Assembly (NCBI GenBank): GCA_021324545.1
Contig: JAJPIX010000047.1
Coordinates: forward strand, 1 to 64,000
Origin: Alphaproteobacteria bacterium
Lineage (GTDB): Bacteria > Pseudomonadota > Alphaproteobacteria > Micropepsales > Micropepsaceae
Length of the DNA: 64,000 bases
Reading direction: 5' to 3'
The notes beneath the pieces were generated by a model. The model saw only the letters and a list, made by a program, of their open reading frames with translations, was not told where the DNA came from and did no database searches. The position numbers and the translations under genes are program-made. This document shows, piece after piece, positions 57,412-64,000 of this stretch (positions are counted from its first letter, which is position 1; every line of letters begins with the position of its first letter).

Positions 57412-58896
57412 TTATGCTGTGAACTCGATGCCCTGTGCGAGGGGAAGCGCGTCGGAATAGTTGATGGTGGCCGTCTGCCGGCGCATATAGGCCTTCCACG
57501 CATCGGAACCGCTTTCACGCCCGCCGCCGGTTTCCTTTTCACCGCCGAAGGCTCCGCCGATCTCCGCGCCGGACGGCCCGATATTCACGTTGGCGATGCC
57601 GCAATCGGAGCCGGCAGCGGCCAGGAACCTTTCGGCCTCCTGCATGTCTTGCGTGAAGATACAGGATGAAAGACCCTGCGGAACGGCATTGTGTCTGGCG
57701 AGCGCGTCTTCGAATCTGGAATAGCGCATCAGATAAAGAATTGGCGCGAATGTTTCGCGGCAAACAACAGGCGTCTGGTCCGGCATTTCCACGATCGCCG
57801 GGCGCACGTACCAGGCGTTCTGGAATTTTTCGGCGAGGACGCGGCCCCCGCCCGTAACCCTGCCGCCTTCGTCGCGCGCGGCCACTAGCGCGCGCTCCAT
57901 GTTGTCGAACGCGGCCTTGTCGATCAGCGGCCCGACCAACGTCCCCTTCTCCAGCGGATTGCCAATCGGGAGATTTGAATAGGTCTTCTTCAGGGCCGGC
58001 ACGAGCCGGTCATAAATCGATTCATGCACGAAAAGGCGCCGGAGCGTCGTGCAGCGCTGGCCAGCCGTGCCGACGGCGGCGAACAGGATGGCCCGCTGCG
58101 CAAGATCCAGTTTCGCCGAAGGACAGACGATCATGCCATTGTTGCCGCCGAGTTCCAGAATGGACTTGCCGAAACGCGCGGCGACCACGGGCGCGAGCTC
58201 CCGCCCCATGCGCGTGGACCCAGTGGCGCTGACCACTGGAATGCGATGGTCTTTCGCGAGGGCCTCGCCTGCCTGCCGCAATCCAAGGACCACCTGTGAA
58301 AGACCGGCGGGCGCCGAAGCAAATTTTCTTGCCGCGCGCTCGAAGAGCGCCTGCGTGGCAAGCGCCGAAAGCGGAGTTTTCTCGCTCGGCTTCCAGATCA
58401 CGCTGTCGCCGCAAACGAGCGCAAGCGCTGCGTTCCAGGCCCACACTGCCACAGGAAAGTTGAAGGCGGATATGATCGCCACTGGGCCCGCCGGATGCCA
58501 TTGCTCCATCATGCGGTGGCCGGGGCGTTCGGAAGCGATCGTTAGGCCATAAAGTTGGCGCGAAAGGCCGACGGCGAAGTCGCAGATGTCGATCATCTCC
58601 TGGACCTCGCCCAGGCCTTCCTGAAGGATTTTTCCGCTCTCCAGCGTCACCAGCCGGCCCAGATGATCCTTGTTGGTGCGCAATTCCTCGCCGAACAGGC
58701 GCACGAGCTCGCCGCGCTTCGGGGCGGGGATTTCGCGCCAGGCGTTGAACGCCGCCACACTGTTTGCAATCTTCGTTTCAACGGTTTTGGCATCGTCGTG
58801 GGCGACGCGACCGATCTCGGCCCCGTCGATGGGCGAATGCACGGCGTGATCGCCGAAGGACGAGAGGCCAAAATGGCTCAGGAGATTCGTGACCAT
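57412..58896 (-). CDS. amaB: L-aminoadipate-semialdehyde / piperideine-6-carboxylate dehydrogenase (ALDH7)
   Basis: A 494-residue aldehyde dehydrogenase of the ALDH7 (AmaB, antiquitin) type, oxidising aminoadipate semialdehyde to aminoadipate in lysine breakdown. Nucleophile Cys in GTAGQRCTTLRR, general base Glu in ILELGGNN, and the ALDH7 features EQWHPAGPVAIISAFNFPVA and IFTQDMQEAERF with NVNIGPSGAEIGGAFGGEK. Two bases follow the upstream dehydrogenase gene, so it is an operon with it. Confidence 0.92.
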   Translation of the reverse strand: MVTNLLSHFGLSSFGDHAVHSPIDGAEIGRVAHDDAKTVETKIANSVAAFNAWREIPAPKRGELVRLFGEELRTNKDHLGRLVTLESGKILQEGLGEVQEMIDICDFAVGLSRQLYGLTIASERPGHRMMEQWHPAGPVAIISAFNFPVAVWAWNAALALVCGDSVIWKPSEKTPLSALATQALFERAARKFASAPAGLSQVVLGLRQAGEALAKDHRIPVVSATGSTRMGRELAPVVAARFGKSILELGGNNGMIVCPSAKLDLAQRAILFAAVGTAGQRCTTLRRLFVHESIYDRLVPALKKTYSNLPIGNPLEKGTLVGPLIDKAAFDNMERALVAARDEGGRVTGGGRVLAEKFQNAWYVRPAIVEMPDQTPVVCRETFAPILYLMRYSRFEDALARHNAVPQGLSSCIFTQDMQEAERFLAAAGSDCGIANVNIGPSGAEIGGAFGGEKETGGGRESGSDAWKAYMRRQTATINYSDALPLAQGIEFTA

Positions 58897-58898
58897 GC

Positions 58899-59966
58899 TC
58901 AAGCGTAATACTTGCCGAAGCGGTTGGCGAGGAAATCGGACAGCTTGCATTCCTCCTGCCGCACAAAGCCTTTTTGCGGCAGTTTCCCTTCCATCAGGAG
59001 GTCGGTCATGGCGCAGATGCCGGCGGCCGTCGTGACCTGAATGCCAGTCATGAACATGCTGCCAACCTGCTGTGCATAAACCTTCTTCGCATAGCTTTCC
59101 TGGGTAAGCTTGCCGCCGATCCAGCCCGTAACCGTCACGAAAATCAGAATGACGTCCTGCTTGGTGCCGGGAATCGCGTGCTCCAGCATGTCCTTGAAGA
59201 TATCGCGCCGCACGCCAAGGCCGAGGTCACGCACCAGAAGCTTGACTATATCGCGATGGCCGGGATAGCGCGCGGTCTTGTAGTTGAGGTTCTCGACCTT
59301 GCCTTCGAGCGTCTCACTGAGCGTGCCAAGGCCCCCAGAGGTGTTGAACGCCTCGTACTCCACCCCGTCCAGCGTGAAGTGTTCAAGCTCTTCCAGCGAG
59401 GGCACTTCGGTTTTCTTGCCGTCGCGGACCGCTTCGCAAGGATTGCAGTATTCGTTGATCAGGCCATCGGTGGACCATGTGAGATTGTATTTCAGGGCGT
59501 TCGTCGGATAGACGGGCAGCGCGCCAACGCGCAGGTTCACATCGCGCAGTTTTTCGAACTTCTTGCAAACGTCGTAGGCGACGATGGAGATGAACCCGGG
59601 CGCCAGTCCGCATTGCGGTATGAAGGCCGTGTCCGACCCTTTGGCTAGCTTCTTGATCGTGCGGGTGGATTCCACATCTTCCGTAAGATCGAGGTAATGC
59701 GCGTTGGCCTTTTTCGCCGCCTCGGCCACCGTGGACGTCAGGTGATAGGGGGTGGCGCAAAGAACGACATCTTGTCCCTCCATTTCCCGGGCAAGACCTG
59801 GCGCTGCGATGTCCACTTTGCGGACTTCAACGTTCTTGCGCGGCATACGCTCGAGGCTTGCAGCATCGCGGTCGATCACCGTGACCTTGTAGTCGCCGCT
59901 TGTGGAAAGGAAGTGGGTGATGGCTATTCCGATCTTGCCACCCCCGACCAGCATCACGTTCTTCAT
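58899..59966 (-). CDS. saccharopine dehydrogenase-family protein (probable lysine 6-dehydrogenase)
   Basis: A 355-residue NAD-dependent enzyme: N-terminal Rossmann motif VGGGKIGIAITHF, VIDRD after strand two, then the saccharopine dehydrogenase-like domain (CGLAPGFISIVAYDV, LTWSTDGLINEYCNP). Its operon with amaB and its size fit lysine 6-dehydrogenase, which yields aminoadipate semialdehyde directly; a saccharopine dehydrogenase is the alternative. Divergent from an Lrp-type regulator. Confidence 0.88.
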   Translation of the reverse strand: MKNVMLVGGGKIGIAITHFLSTSGDYKVTVIDRDAASLERMPRKNVEVRKVDIAAPGLAREMEGQDVVLCATPYHLTSTVAEAAKKANAHYLDLTEDVESTRTIKKLAKGSDTAFIPQCGLAPGFISIVAYDVCKKFEKLRDVNLRVGALPVYPTNALKYNLTWSTDGLINEYCNPCEAVRDGKKTEVPSLEELEHFTLDGVEYEAFNTSGGLGTLSETLEGKVENLNYKTARYPGHRDIVKLLVRDLGLGVRRDIFKDMLEHAIPGTKQDVILIFVTVTGWIGGKLTQESYAKKVYAQQVGSMFMTGIQVTTAAGICAMTDLLMEGKLPQKGFVRQEECKLSDFLANRFGKYYA

Positions 59967-60024
59967 GGCGCGCTCCCGTCTAACTACCGGGAAAAGCTAG
60001 GGCTTTGCGCCCTCAAAAAGGAGG

Positions 60025-60080
60025 CGGCGATTCGCCGGTTTGTAGGCTAGTATCCGGCGAAACGCCGGAAAATCCGGCGA
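60025..60080. promoter_or_regulatory. operator cluster between lysine genes and Lrp-type regulator
   Basis: Three related sites: CGGCGATTCGCCG (60025-60037), CCGGCGAAACGCCGG (60054-60068) and half-site TCCGGCGA (60073-60080). The first two palindrome centres are 30 bases apart, about three helix turns, as expected for an Lrp/AsnC octamer. They lie in the 130-base divergent promoter region, so they may control both directions. Confidence 0.65.
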
Positions 60081-60096
60081 TTTGCAGGAACTTTGC

Positions 60097-60522
60097 ATGC
60101 GCGAAAAGGATGCCGAGCTGATTGCTCTTCTGAAGGCCAATGCGCGCGAACCGGCCGCCTCGCTCGCCCGCAAACTGGGCCTGGCGCGTTCGACCGTGCA
60201 GGAGCGGATCGCCCGCCTGGAGCGGGAGGGCATCATCCAGGGTTACACCGTGCAACTTTCGGACAAGGCGACCGCCGGGCGCCTGAGCGCGATTGTCATG
60301 ATTCTGGCCGACCCGAAGCGGGCTGACCGCGTTTCGGGAGAATTGAAGAAAATGCCCGAAGTGCGCTCGCTTTCCGCCGTTTCCGGGGCCTTCGACATGG
60401 TGGCGATGGTCGAAGCCGACACTCCCGCCCGTATGGATGCCGCGCTTGACCGCATCGGCAGCGCCCATGGCGTGTCGCGAACGGTGTCATCCATCATCCT
60501 TTCTGAAAAGTTTGCACGCTGA
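60097..60522 (+). CDS. Lrp/AsnC-family transcriptional regulator
   Basis: A 141-residue feast/famine regulator: helix-turn-helix at about 8-50 (ASLARKLGLARSTVQERIAR) and a RAM ligand domain (MPEVRSLSAVSGAFDMVAMV). Ligand is probably an amino acid, by context lysine or an intermediate. Divergent from the lysine catabolic pair with palindromic sites between. Confidence 0.92.
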   Translation: MREKDAELIALLKANAREPAASLARKLGLARSTVQERIARLEREGIIQGYTVQLSDKATAGRLSAIVMILADPKRADRVSGELKKMPEVRSLSAVSGAFDMVAMVEADTPARMDAALDRIGSAHGVSRTVSSIILSEKFAR

Positions 60523-60595: not shown

Positions 60596-62113
60596 ATGGG
60601 CGTCAGCGACTCGCCGACAGCGCCCAAGCGCGGCTTTATCGAGCGCGCGCGCAGGCCCAACCGTGAGCACATGAACGCGCTGCGTGCGCGCATGCCGTTC
60701 TGGTGGGTCGTTGTAGTTCTTGTGGCGCTTGCGTGCTGGCAGATCTTGCTCAACCCGTTCGGATTCTCAAGCCTCGTCCAGCGCTACACACAGGACATTT
60801 CCAACCTTCTGATCAGCGGACCCTATCTTTACGGTACGTCCGGCCATGACCAGATCGCCGTAGCGCTGATCGACGACAACACGCTTTCGGACACCGAATC
60901 GTCGTGGCCATGGTCCTACGGCATGCATGCGCGCGTGCTCGACGCGCTCAGGCTCTACAAGCCGAAAGCTGTGATCGTGGATTTCCTGTTCGTGGACAGC
61001 CGCAAAAGCGGGCTGCGCAAGGACGAGACCCTGAAGGAATTGATTGACGAAATCCGCCGTTATCAGGCCGACGGAATTCCGATCTATTTCGAAGCCGGCG
61101 AAGACGAACCCCTGATCAAGCCGATCGTCAGGACGGGCGTGCGGATTCTCGATCCCACGATCATGCTCAACCAGGGAATTGCGCGACAGTATCCGGTGAC
61201 GGGCCGCTGCCTGAACGGCGAGAAGGGAAATATGCCGTGCCATTCGCTGGCGCTTTCCGTTTACAGCGACTTCTACCGCGCGCATCGCAATGATCCTGAA
61301 ATCGCCGCTCTCGGCCTGAAACCTCTCGACGCCAACCCGGATGGCGTGATGGAGCTCGTGTGGGGCACGCGCACCGATCCCATAAACCGCAAATGGATGC
61401 GGCCCACCGACGAGAGCGGAAAAAGCTATTCCTGCGATCAGGACATAGGCTTTTTCAGCCGCATCTATCTTGCGTTCTTCGATCCGGAACAGGTGCGGGC
61501 GCGATGCCCCTATGAAAGCGTCATCCCCGTCGAAAGCCTCTTGAGCGGGCGGCCCGATGCCGATGTGTCCGACATGGCCCGGCGCATCGTTTTCTATGGC
61601 GGCGGCATCGAAGGCGCGCAGGACAAATCCTACACGCCGGTGAACGGGCCCTTGCAGCCCGATGTGTTCGTGCATGCCATGGCGCTGGACAACCTCATCA
61701 CCTTCAAGGGCAAGCCCGAGCAGAACGTGGTGAGGATTTTCGGCGAGACATTTTCCAACGATCCCATCCAGATCGTGACCATCGTGCCGGTGATCTTCAT
61801 CCTGTCGTGGCTGCACATGCAGCGGCTCAAGCGCAAGCGCCGGCGCGGGCATCACGCCAGGGAGCGCAGCGTGACAGCGGAATATGTGCTTGAAAAATCC
61901 GCCGAGATCGCCTGGCATTGGCTGGCGTTTTTCCTGGCGCTCGGCGCAGGGTTGGCGCTGACGCTGGCGGCGGGGCTTTCGGTCGCCAATTGGGTGGAAG
62001 TTGTTTTCGTATCGGTGGAACTGGCCGCACTTCTGCTAGTCGGTTTCCCCGATGCGCTCTGGGGCTATGTGCATCATGTGGCGGGCGGAATTCCCGACCT
62101 GCAAACATCATGA
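60596..62113 (+). CDS. CHASE2-domain membrane protein
   Basis: A 505-residue protein: cytoplasmic N-terminus, first helix near 36-53, a periplasmic CHASE2 domain of about 330 residues (IAVALIDDNTLSD, WPWSYGMHARVLDAL, AVIVDFLFVDSR), then three C-terminal helices (about 395-412, 440-462, 466-488). No kinase or cyclase output domain follows, unlike typical CHASE2 proteins. Coupled to two secreted-protein genes downstream. Confidence 0.86.
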   Translation: MGVSDSPTAPKRGFIERARRPNREHMNALRARMPFWWVVVVLVALACWQILLNPFGFSSLVQRYTQDISNLLISGPYLYGTSGHDQIAVALIDDNTLSDTESSWPWSYGMHARVLDALRLYKPKAVIVDFLFVDSRKSGLRKDETLKELIDEIRRYQADGIPIYFEAGEDEPLIKPIVRTGVRILDPTIMLNQGIARQYPVTGRCLNGEKGNMPCHSLALSVYSDFYRAHRNDPEIAALGLKPLDANPDGVMELVWGTRTDPINRKWMRPTDESGKSYSCDQDIGFFSRIYLAFFDPEQVRARCPYESVIPVESLLSGRPDADVSDMARRIVFYGGGIEGAQDKSYTPVNGPLQPDVFVHAMALDNLITFKGKPEQNVVRIFGETFSNDPIQIVTIVPVIFILSWLHMQRLKRKRRRGHHARERSVTAEYVLEKSAEIAWHWLAFFLALGAGLALTLAAGLSVANWVEVVFVSVELAALLLVGFPDALWGYVHHVAGGIPDLQTS

Positions 62114-62126
62114 AAGGGAGCTTGAA

Positions 62127-62531
62127 ATGAGACCGATCATCGGAACCGTGACGTTCGCCGCCGCGCTCACGTTATTTGTGCCTGCTTTCGCCGACACCAC
62201 CTGCCCGGGCACCGGCGACATGGTACTGTCAGCCAAGACACCGCAGGTGGACCTCTATGATGCGGCCAACGGCAAACGCGTCCAGACAATGGACGCCGAC
62301 AAGTTTCCGACCTGCCTTCCGATTGCTGCAAAGGCGCCCAACATGATGCTGGAAGTGAATGTGAACGGCACCAACTACTGGGTGCCGCCGCACATGGTGA
62401 ACACGCGCATGACGACCGCCGGCCAGCCGATCTGCCGCAAGCTTGCCATGGGCGGCGATCAGGACAAGAAAGCCGGTTCGACACGCGCGCTCGGCGAAGG
62501 CTGCCCCAAACCCACGAATGGCGGACAGTGA
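62127..62531 (+). CDS. secreted SH3b-like protein
   Basis: A 134-residue exported protein with a signal peptide to about residue 22 (VTFAAALTLFVPAFA). The mature part has four cysteines, probably two disulfides, and a bacterial SH3-like pattern (VDLYDAANGKRVQTM ... MLEVNVNGTNYWVPPHMV). AAAGGGAG lies just upstream of the ATG. It sits between the CHASE2 and M48 genes. Function unknown. Confidence 0.72.
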   Translation: MRPIIGTVTFAAALTLFVPAFADTTCPGTGDMVLSAKTPQVDLYDAANGKRVQTMDADKFPTCLPIAAKAPNMMLEVNVNGTNYWVPPHMVNTRMTTAGQPICRKLAMGGDQDKKAGSTRALGEGCPKPTNGGQ

Positions 62532-62532
62532 T

Positions 62533-64000
62533 ATGATTACCTTCCGCCGCGCTTTTTCCCTTACGACCCTGTCCTGTGCCGCGCTGCTTCTTGCAGTCAG
62601 CGCCGATGCGAGCCTCTTCGGCGGCGGTGGAGAGGGCGATGGCTACCCCGACAAAGGCAAGGCCATCGAACTTCTGAAACCCGCCGCGGACTACAGCGGC
62701 ATGCTGACAGACCGGCCGCGCACATTAGGCATCATGCGCGCACGCGCGCAGGGATTTGTGCCTTCCCCGGCACTCCATGACTACGTCAAGGGCGTGATGC
62801 TGAAGCTGCTGGCGGGCATCAATCTGCCGCCATCGTTCCAGCCGGAGGTGCGCATTCTTGCCGCGCCGGAATTTGCGGGCGAATGCACGCCGGATGGAAC
62901 GCTCATCATCACGGTGGGACTGCTGGAAAAGCTCGACAATGAAGACGAATTGGCCTTCGTGCTCGGCCATGAACTCGCGCATGCGATCTACCGGCACCGG
63001 ATTGCGGACTGGTACAAGAAATCGCAGCTCTACGCGGTGGTGAACGGAGCGGCCGTGGATCAGGTTGGCATCTCCACTGCGGTGGCCGTGTCCGGGGCCA
63101 ATGCCGGGCAGGTCGCGCGTGGACTGGATTTTGCGCAGCACTTGCTGAAACTGAGCGCCAATGTGCTCACACCGCAGTTCGAGAAGGGGCAGGAAGACGC
63201 CGCCGACGCGCTGGGCTTCGATATGATGGTCAAGGCCGGTTATTCGACCGATGCCGCCAATTCCGTTCTCGACAAGCTTGCGGAGCAGGAACGAGAAGCC
63301 AAAGCTGCGGCGGACGCAGCCAGGGCAGCCGCGCAGCGCGACAACGGATCGGGGGGCGGTCCGGTGGCCAATGTGTTCAACGCGATCGGCGGCGTGAGCG
63401 GCTTGCTCAGCCTGAGCCAGGGCCATGTCAGCACACAACAGATCGAAGATGTGGGACTGACCGTATTCGACGCAGCGGTCGACTCCATGGCGGAGGATGC
63501 AACGACGCATCATCCCGCAAAGGAACGCGAGAAGCTGCTCGCAGCTTATGAATTCCGCGAATATCGCGACACGCTTCCTGCTACGCCCAAGCCATTGCCG
63601 TGGAAGGGGGCGCATCCCGCAAATCCGGCGCTTGCGCAACTGATCGCGCACTATGGCGATGCGGAGAACGCCGCCGCCTATGTTGCCGATGCCAATGCAG
63701 GATCGGCGTCGAGCGCCAAGGCCGATGCCCAGCGCGCGATCACGGCTCCGACTTCAAATCATGCCTACACGGAATATGTCGTGGCGGAACTTTACGACCA
63801 GGAGAAGAATTCCGCACAGTCCGAGGCAGCACTGCTCCGCGCGGTGAACGGACCCGAGCCTTCATGGGCTGTGTATTCGCGACTGGCGAACATCTACATC
63901 GCGCGCGGAGAATGGGCCAAGGCGCAGGCGCTGATGGATCAGGCAAATGCGCGCTTCGACAATTCGCCCGTGCTCCTGCCCATGCGCATCAAGGTGCTGG
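62533..64000 (+). CDS. M48-family metalloprotease (partial, runs off the window)
   Basis: A periplasmic zinc protease; 489 codons are visible and the 3' end lies beyond the window. Signal peptide to about residue 28. The zinc motif is H146-E-L-A-H150 in VLGHELAHAIYRH, with the third ligand probably Glu221 (KGQEDAADALGFDMM). After an Ala-rich helical stretch comes a TPR-like region (HAYTEYVVAELYDQEKNSAQ). The layout matches BepA/LoiP-type M48 proteins that police outer-membrane assembly. Confidence 0.9.
   Translation, partial: MITFRRAFSLTTLSCAALLLAVSADASLFGGGGEGDGYPDKGKAIELLKPAADYSGMLTDRPRTLGIMRARAQGFVPSPALHDYVKGVMLKLLAGINLPPSFQPEVRILAAPEFAGECTPDGTLIITVGLLEKLDNEDELAFVLGHELAHAIYRHRIADWYKKSQLYAVVNGAAVDQVGISTAVAVSGANAGQVARGLDFAQHLLKLSANVLTPQFEKGQEDAADALGFDMMVKAGYSTDAANSVLDKLAEQEREAKAAADAARAAAQRDNGSGGGPVANVFNAIGGVSGLLSLSQGHVSTQQIEDVGLTVFDAAVDSMAEDATTHHPAKEREKLLAAYEFREYRDTLPATPKPLPWKGAHPANPALAQLIAHYGDAENAAAYVADANAGSASSAKADAQRAITAPTSNHAYTEYVVAELYDQEKNSAQSEAALLRAVNGPEPSWAVYSRLANIYIARGEWAKAQALMDQANARFDNSPVLLPMRIKVL

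Follow-up and report, generated by a model that had tools for sequence, protein, structure and literature searches.

CHASE2 membrane protein, small SH3-like protein and M48 protease: a conserved three-gene envelope unit of Proteobacteria

CHASE2 is a widespread bacterial sensor domain, and a cytoplasmic output domain is usual but not obligatory in the receptors that carry it. The window analysed here, a stretch of 64,000 nucleotides (nt) from an alphaproteobacterium of the family Micropepsaceae (assembly GCA_021324545.1, contig JAJPIX010000047.1, positions 1 to 64,000), encodes at its 3' end a CHASE2 membrane protein of 505 amino acids (aa) in which such a domain is missing according to Pfam and hydropathy. 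Its gene is followed by those of a small SH3-like protein and an M48 metalloprotease. The question raised by this locus is whether the three genes belong together and, if they do, what a receptor without output might do beside a protease. The initial annotation proposed an envelope-stress or protease-control unit. Our comparisons of sequences indicate that the existence of a real, conserved three-gene envelope unit of CHASE2, SH3-like and M48 proteins is the best-supported statement that can be made about the locus. The features are as follows.

60596..62113, + strand: CHASE2 membrane protein without output domain, 505 aa (open reading frame (ORF), Pfam, AlphaFold2 model, hydropathy)
Residues 57-381 of that protein (about 60764-61738), + strand: CHASE2 domain (PF05226)
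62127..62531, + strand: small SH3-like protein, 134 aa, with an export-type N-terminus and a C-terminal tail bounded by conserved C103 and C126 (ORF, model, alignment)
62533..64000 in the window, + strand: M48 zinc metalloprotease, 524 aa, with an export-type N-terminus and a C-terminal part possibly like tetratricopeptide repeats (TPR) (ORF, Pfam, alignment)
62968..62982, + strand: zinc-binding HExxH of the M48 protease, HELAH, residues 146-150 (sequence and conservation)

The gaps between the genes are 13 nt (CHASE2 to small gene) and 1 nt (small gene to M48). Following the sequence beyond position 64,000, as the initial annotation had suggested, places the end of the protease gene at the equivalent of 64107, 107 bases outside the window, where the full gene was read from the host genome (2.70 Mb, 68 contigs). 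In named records, the CHASE2 protein has its closest relatives under labels that include Rhizomicrobium sp. and Alphaproteobacteria bacterium.

Conservation of the three genes

At the genus level, five of 61 genomes (our own included) were found to carry a close CHASE2 homologue at E 1e-136 or better; one other, G028, has a remote homologue (E 7.8e-22) and four gave weak matches (E 1.8e-5 to 1e-3). These five genomes also hold the small protein (E 1e-38 or better), with the protease next in 5/5. The four other genomes with close copies have some flanking genes in common with the window and therefore, taken alone, they prove little. In G028, CHASE2, a 146-aa protein and M48 lie side by side, with CHASE2 and M48 only 25-26% identical to those of the window (local alignment). 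When a profile of six CHASE2 proteins was applied to 387 genomes of the class, nine matched at E 1e-15, among them our own and two congeners. Both partners adjoin CHASE2 in all nine, once in the order SH3-M48-CHASE2.

A wider set of loci was collected from named genomes with one peptide pattern, which gave 264 matching stretches and 177 confirmed relatives. In the best 80 of these 177, CHASE2 is present in 80, the small gene in 79, the protease in 79 and all three in 78; the two loci without the full trio (L061 and L118) are both cut by contig ends. The profiles that detect the trio at these loci were built from 14 trios, and seven of the 80 loci (L062, L063, L065, L066, L068, L070 and L124) are apparently the same records as those used in the building. 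The trio loci span Alpha-, Beta- and Gammaproteobacteria, and among the genera are Pseudomonas, Stutzerimonas, Alteromonas, Salinimonas, Cognaticolwellia, Rhodoferax, Polaromonas, Massilia, Pusillimonas, Dechloromonas, Thalassospira and Thalassobaculum. All three genes were observed to share one strand, in the order CHASE2-SH3-M48 in 72 of the 78 loci and SH3-M48-CHASE2 in 6. Median gaps in the 72 are -1 and 1 nt, with starts guessed by script. The trio is kept at 20-26% CHASE2 identity and in other gene contexts. The initial annotation would have been refuted by a gene order kept in close relatives only; this outcome did not arise, as the order reaches three proteobacterial classes, and its view of the three genes as a unit agrees with these counts.

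Across the phylum, some CHASE2 match at E 1e-6 was found in 65 of 397 genomes and the scores are bimodal. Seven genomes, our own included, reach at least 180 bits with frames of 481-547 aa, and the next place stands at 46.9 bits with frames of at least 572 aa. The protease adjoins the subfamily CHASE2 in 7/7 of these genomes, and the small gene was found by profile in six and by eye in the seventh (L145). An M48 profile run on a phylum draw of the same size gave 75 genomes at E 1e-25; the same seven top the search (at least 138.8 bits, next 119.8) and their M48 places adjoin the CHASE2 matches. Since the reciprocal searches are topped by the same genomes, neither gene was seen alone there at the subfamily level. 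These phylum searches used CHASE2 and M48 profiles, with the small protein sought only beside them, and in each genome the searches scored no more than the top 3 or 4 candidates (13 for a survey of a single genus), so that lower-ranked copies could escape. In the single-genus survey CHASE2 was found in 10 of 119 genomes, which marks the unit as accessory and not core. Our own genome holds two further CHASE2 loci, neither with an M48 nor with a window-type small protein by profile.

Clustering of the genes at 33 loci by BLAST gave M48, CHASE2 and SH3 families that span 30, 28 and 18 loci respectively, the gene caller and the cut-off being simple and some trio members missed. No conserved fourth gene was observed among these loci. 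The other clusters span at most five; they are mostly neighbours common to the window and its closest relatives, and a few bring together 3-5 loci from different genera. Tree distances for 32 loci were found to correlate at 0.85 (CHASE2/M48), 0.67 (CHASE2/SH3) and 0.70 (SH3/M48), values that each were reached in 0 of 2000 permutations, and CHASE2 and M48 have the same nearest neighbour in 22/32 loci. Species relationship alone would also yield such a correlation. Some placements in both the CHASE2 and the M48 tree, which are quick trees with long branches, run contrary to taxonomy, for example those of Pseudomonas saudimassiliensis and a gammaproteobacterial record with Pusillimonas, and these placements would fit a transfer of the genes as a unit.

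Features of the three proteins and of the neighbouring genes

The CHASE2 domain of the window protein scores 76 bits against a Pfam cut-off of 26.3, and no second Pfam family above cut-off and no NCBIfam match were found in this protein. Hydropathy gives hydrophobic segments at residues 27-61 (before the domain), 385-411 and 436-492, the last of which is not split by the method. Only 13 residues remain after it and therefore there is no space for an output domain, as the initial annotation had read the protein. The AlphaFold2 model, with a predicted local distance difference test score (pLDDT) of 89.3 and a predicted template modelling (TM) score of 0.88, has C-terminal helices at 389-420, 426-459 and 463-482 which match the hydropathy. 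Over the 80 loci the number of residues after the last hydrophobic stretch has a median of 19 and a maximum of 61. Our alignments show that D129, W256, H360 and N366 are invariant (60/60 rows each), and C280 and C304 are each conserved in 51/60.

No credible solved relative of the CHASE2 protein emerged from phmmer (lowest E 0.5), and Foldseek of its model against the PDB returned zero matches at E 0.001. The best Z in a VIA structure comparison was 5.2, which possibly reflects just a common arrangement and is no demonstration of a new fold. The sole match among viral models at E 0.001 or below was the BFVD model A0A6J5RWB7 (Foldseek, E 8.1e-10), an uncultured Caudovirales protein annotated COG4252.

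The small protein begins with a hydrophobic stretch (residues 1-23) and has no match in Pfam or NCBIfam. Its model is a beta barrel with a seven-strand core (pLDDT about 95), for which the top Foldseek match is the bacterial SH3 structure 2krs (TM 0.60 by target length, E 0.026). At this E value, kinship with bacterial SH3 domains is suggestive only. A relative of the small protein from L135 scored 16 against the Pfam SH3_3 cut-off of 27, and relatives from L080, L088 and L111 gave no SH3 match. In the tail, C103 and C126 are present in 59/60 rows and G121 in 55/60, and the last two cysteines are 19-27 residues apart in 78/79 loci.

The protease matches PF01435 at 62.3 bits (cut-off 20.3) and its hydrophobic N-terminus covers residues 6-33. 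Export of the small protein and of the protease is inferred from such N-termini, read from hydropathy. The zinc site formed by H146, E147 and H150 together with E221 is complete in 42/42 rows, and the earlier description of two exported proteins, one of them a zinc protease, can be kept in this sense. H326 (41/42) and R332 (42/42) were found to be spaced as the histidine and arginine of the active-site plug of Escherichia coli BepA, where movement of the plug is reported to be essential and has been proposed to autoregulate the enzyme (PMC7950410). Another cysteine pair, C505 and C517, is conserved in 41/42 rows. It is our inference that the conserved pair in each of the three trio proteins would form a disulfide. 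A lipobox-like motif was observed in 55 of 75 relatives, four of 79 proteases having been dropped for unsure starts; the aligned lipobox cysteine column has C in 28/42 rows and V in the window protease.

In the C-terminal part, Pfam TPR models remain below cut-off. The family profile matches designed pentatricopeptide repeat chains at 44-55 bits, with no single stretch passing alone, and matches the TPR part of BepA weakly. The protease resembles BepA in its M48 HExxH and third zinc ligand, in a histidine and an arginine at the spacing of those of the plug and perhaps in a TPR-like C-terminal part, but the window subfamily differs in that the plug proline is mostly lost, a C-terminal cysteine pair is present and the gene lies beside CHASE2 and SH3-like genes. 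An assignment to BepA or LoiP was rejected because the scores are far under both NCBIfam cut-offs (46.7 vs 570 bits for the BepA equivalog NF052400 and 34.1 vs 365 bits for LoiP, NF052399). At another locus (L067:3966-7103), a tandem pair of M48 genes of the window subfamily was seen after CHASE2 and the small gene.

An Lrp/AsnC-domain gene lies upstream of the trio, and 3' of the trio there is one ORF with an export-type N-terminus followed by an opposite-strand pyridoxal phosphate (PLP) enzyme with an ACT domain. That ORF (L004:6112-6606, equivalent to 64111-64605, outside the window) encodes 164 aa and starts 3 nt after the protease gene. It has no match in Pfam or NCBIfam, and it was dropped as a member of the unit because no match to it was found in the five related loci compared. 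Within window positions 57412-60522, Pfam identifies genes for aldehyde dehydrogenase and saccharopine dehydrogenase, both on the - strand and opposite the Lrp/AsnC-type regulator that immediately precedes the trio, a group that looks like a lysine-related cluster. A promoter scan found 1 against 1.2 in shuffled sequences and terminators numbered 5 against 3.1 (standard deviation 2.1), from which no conclusion was drawn.

Counterparts with a cyclase

The 20 best CHASE2 genomes outside the subfamily were examined as a control in stretches of 12 kb. M48 was found by profile in four of them (L169-L172) and in none of the other 16, and the window-type small protein was found by profile in 0/20. 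In each of the four, a gene for CHASE2 fused to a class III cyclase precedes that of an SH3 protein, which in turn is followed by the gene of an M48 of about 300 aa. A query with this cyclase form matched 147 of 397 genomes at E 1e-40. Thirty of the loci were viewed: the six best, at at least 490 bits, all have an M48 and an SH3 gene, as does L197 (extended as L258), and no M48 was seen in the remaining 23 within the flank viewed. This flank is about 1500 bases for loci from the genome searches, and L195-L218 were judged on that alone. Pfam identified the cyclase on L190, on L256 and on L172, whose gene is that of L189; other loci match along the cyclase part. SH3_3 was confirmed by Pfam in the three loci tested (L171, L256 and L258), most SH3 genes of the cyclase form having been identified by eye. 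Two SH3 profiles made here detected no SH3 neighbour at 22 other M48 loci.

The cyclase loci L189-L194, L256 and L257 share with the window the same three domain types in the same order. They differ in that their CHASE2 protein carries a class III cyclase, their M48 is about 300 aa where measured and lacks the TPR-like part, and their SH3 protein has another tail. In the CHASE2 tree the window form makes up one side of a branch (29 rows) with a support of 100 in the Shimodaira-Hasegawa-like approximate likelihood ratio test, and the cyclase form falls elsewhere. In the M48 tree the window form is again one side of a branch, with a support of just 47; the cyclase form (6 rows, support 99) lies apart from it. 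Similarity between the small proteins of the window form and the cyclase form is weak, with a best score of 16.3 bits. Since the trees leave these forms unjoined, the combination may have originated more than once.

Two variants of the counterparts were also observed. At L256:2064-7843 (by Pfam) and L257:1335-7088 (by profile, similarity and reading), which lie in genomes G433 and G459 and were spotted through the protease search, the CHASE2-cyclase, SH3 and M48 genes are followed in a row by one for a GAF-GAF-HD type protein. It is possible that this arrangement places a pair for second-messenger synthesis and breakdown around the protease. At L258:2228-5486, Pfam finds no cyclase in a CHASE2 frame of 580 aa that stands beside an SH3_3 gene and a short-type M48, possibly a second and separate loss of the output.

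Possible mechanism, alternatives and related systems

What might a receptor of this kind do with a protease? The reading that we tentatively favour, from the sequences and the likeness to BepA, is that a plug-inhibited periplasmic protease is coupled to the CHASE2 receptor by the SH3-like protein and that the output is regulated proteolysis. The protease would rest plugged, and the SH3-like protein would dock it to the periplasmic CHASE2 domain through the barrel or the cysteine-bounded tail. A change in the envelope would alter the complex and the protease would then open or close, so that the output of the window form would be regulated proteolysis. In the cyclase-bearing counterparts a similar trio would pass the event on to the cell interior by way of a cyclic nucleotide, and the window form would have kept the receptor as a regulator and anchor. 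Because cysteine pairs are conserved in all three proteins, a complex that reads the redox or folding state of the envelope is conceivable. The initial suggestion that the CHASE2 protein senses or scaffolds rather than signals fits the window form, but it does not extend to the whole combination, since the counterparts carry a class III cyclase. A broader proposal, which we put forward more guardedly and regard as speculative, is that a CHASE2 receptor, an SH3-like adaptor with its cysteine-bounded tail and a plug-inhibited M48 would form one sensor-protease complex and so represent a class of envelope signalling unit not yet described. This class would have been assembled more than once, with cyclic nucleotide as the output in one branch and periplasmic proteolysis in that of the window.

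Several observations weigh against the coupling of receptor and protease described above. Among solved structures, none is clearly related to the CHASE2 domain. The proline position of the HPX4R plug motif is mostly occupied by another residue, and the role of the conserved cysteine pairs could be no more than structural. What the cyclase form does may not apply to the window form, as the CHASE2 and M48 trees do not place the former as sister of the latter, and at L195 a CHASE2 inside the cyclase-form clade has no M48 or SH3 gene in the flank seen.

The flow of information might also be reversed, with the M48 and SH3-like proteins making or presenting a periplasmic ligand (a cleaved protein or a wall fragment) that CHASE2 receives, and with output through a cytoplasmic partner, encoded elsewhere, by which the membrane part is read. 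The trios with a cyclase on CHASE2 would suit such a flow, as would the GAF-GAF-HD type protein next to two of them (Pfam on one) and the CHASE2 cyclases of Sinorhizobium meliloti, which are reported to respond to a signal perceived by way of an outer-membrane protein (PMC13001267). However, few residues follow the last hydrophobic stretch at any of the 80 loci and no widespread fourth gene stands beside the trio in the 33 clustered ones, and we consider this flow unlikely for the window form, if still worth some weight. A somewhat smaller share of our belief goes to an ordinary protease for outer-membrane quality control, akin to BepA or LoiP, for which CHASE2 and the SH3-like protein would be accessory anchors with no sensing. 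The M48 domain with its possibly TPR-like part, as in BepA, and the lipobox-like motif of most relatives speak for it; the scores far below both NCBIfam cut-offs and the four other M48 places in the window genome speak against it, and it leaves the strict linkage to CHASE2 unexplained.

The patchy distribution of the unit (7/397 phylum genomes and 10/119 in one genus) and the class-mixing tree placements would be expected of a horizontally spread defence or competition system that joins a membrane sensor to a protease. None of six module proteins matched PADLOC-DB 2.0.0 at E 0.01, and the annotated neighbours in the window, an Lrp-type regulator and an ACT-domain PLP enzyme, are not mobile genes, which makes a defence role highly improbable. 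Chance adjacency, or plain synteny of close relatives, could draw on the flanking genes common to the window and the four close-copy genomes. It was ruled out, with hardly any residual doubt, by the locus counts (78 of the best 80) and the reciprocal phylum searches, together with the persistence of the trio at low CHASE2 identity, in other contexts and in two orders.

Related arrangements, which serve as partial precedents for the coupling that we favour, have been described for other CHASE2 proteins. CyaD1, CyaD2 and CyaK of S. meliloti with the outer-membrane protein NsrA likewise join a CHASE2 receptor to an envelope partner, but they carry a cyclase, and the partner named for them is a beta-barrel and not an SH3 protein with a protease (PMC13001267). 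The BiofilmReg operon of Burkholderia resembles the window in pairing a CHASE2 receptor with a predicted-exported wall-binding (LysM/FecR) protein; there CHASE2 is joined to a histidine kinase, a response regulator is present and the four components listed in the accessible text include no M48 (PMC5192318). In the mtxA cluster of magnetotactic bacteria a signal-peptide protein is encoded beside a CHASE2 cyclase, but MtxA is described as without known homologues and the accessible part of the account mentions no protease for the cluster (PMC4439547). CHASE2 has also been described in metacaspases (PMC3501461). Within open PubMed Central, which mostly leaves subscription journals outside, we found no description of CHASE2 with M48, of M48 with SH3 in an operon or of COG4252 with a peptidase, and the view of the initial annotation that no system with these three parts had been described stands within this scope.

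The factors recognised by CHASE2 were stated as not known in 2016 (PMC5192318), and the functions of M48 proteases have been called not well understood (PMC7950410). A conserved operon that links an output-less CHASE2 protein, an M48 protease and a small adaptor makes a partner and perhaps the input of CHASE2, as well as the control of the protease, testable. Culturable carriers among the loci include Stutzerimonas stutzeri and Pseudomonas fluorescens, and the cyclase-bearing counterparts would allow the same event to be read as a second messenger. The keeping of the trio in distant bacteria points to an unstudied control of a protease at the cell envelope.

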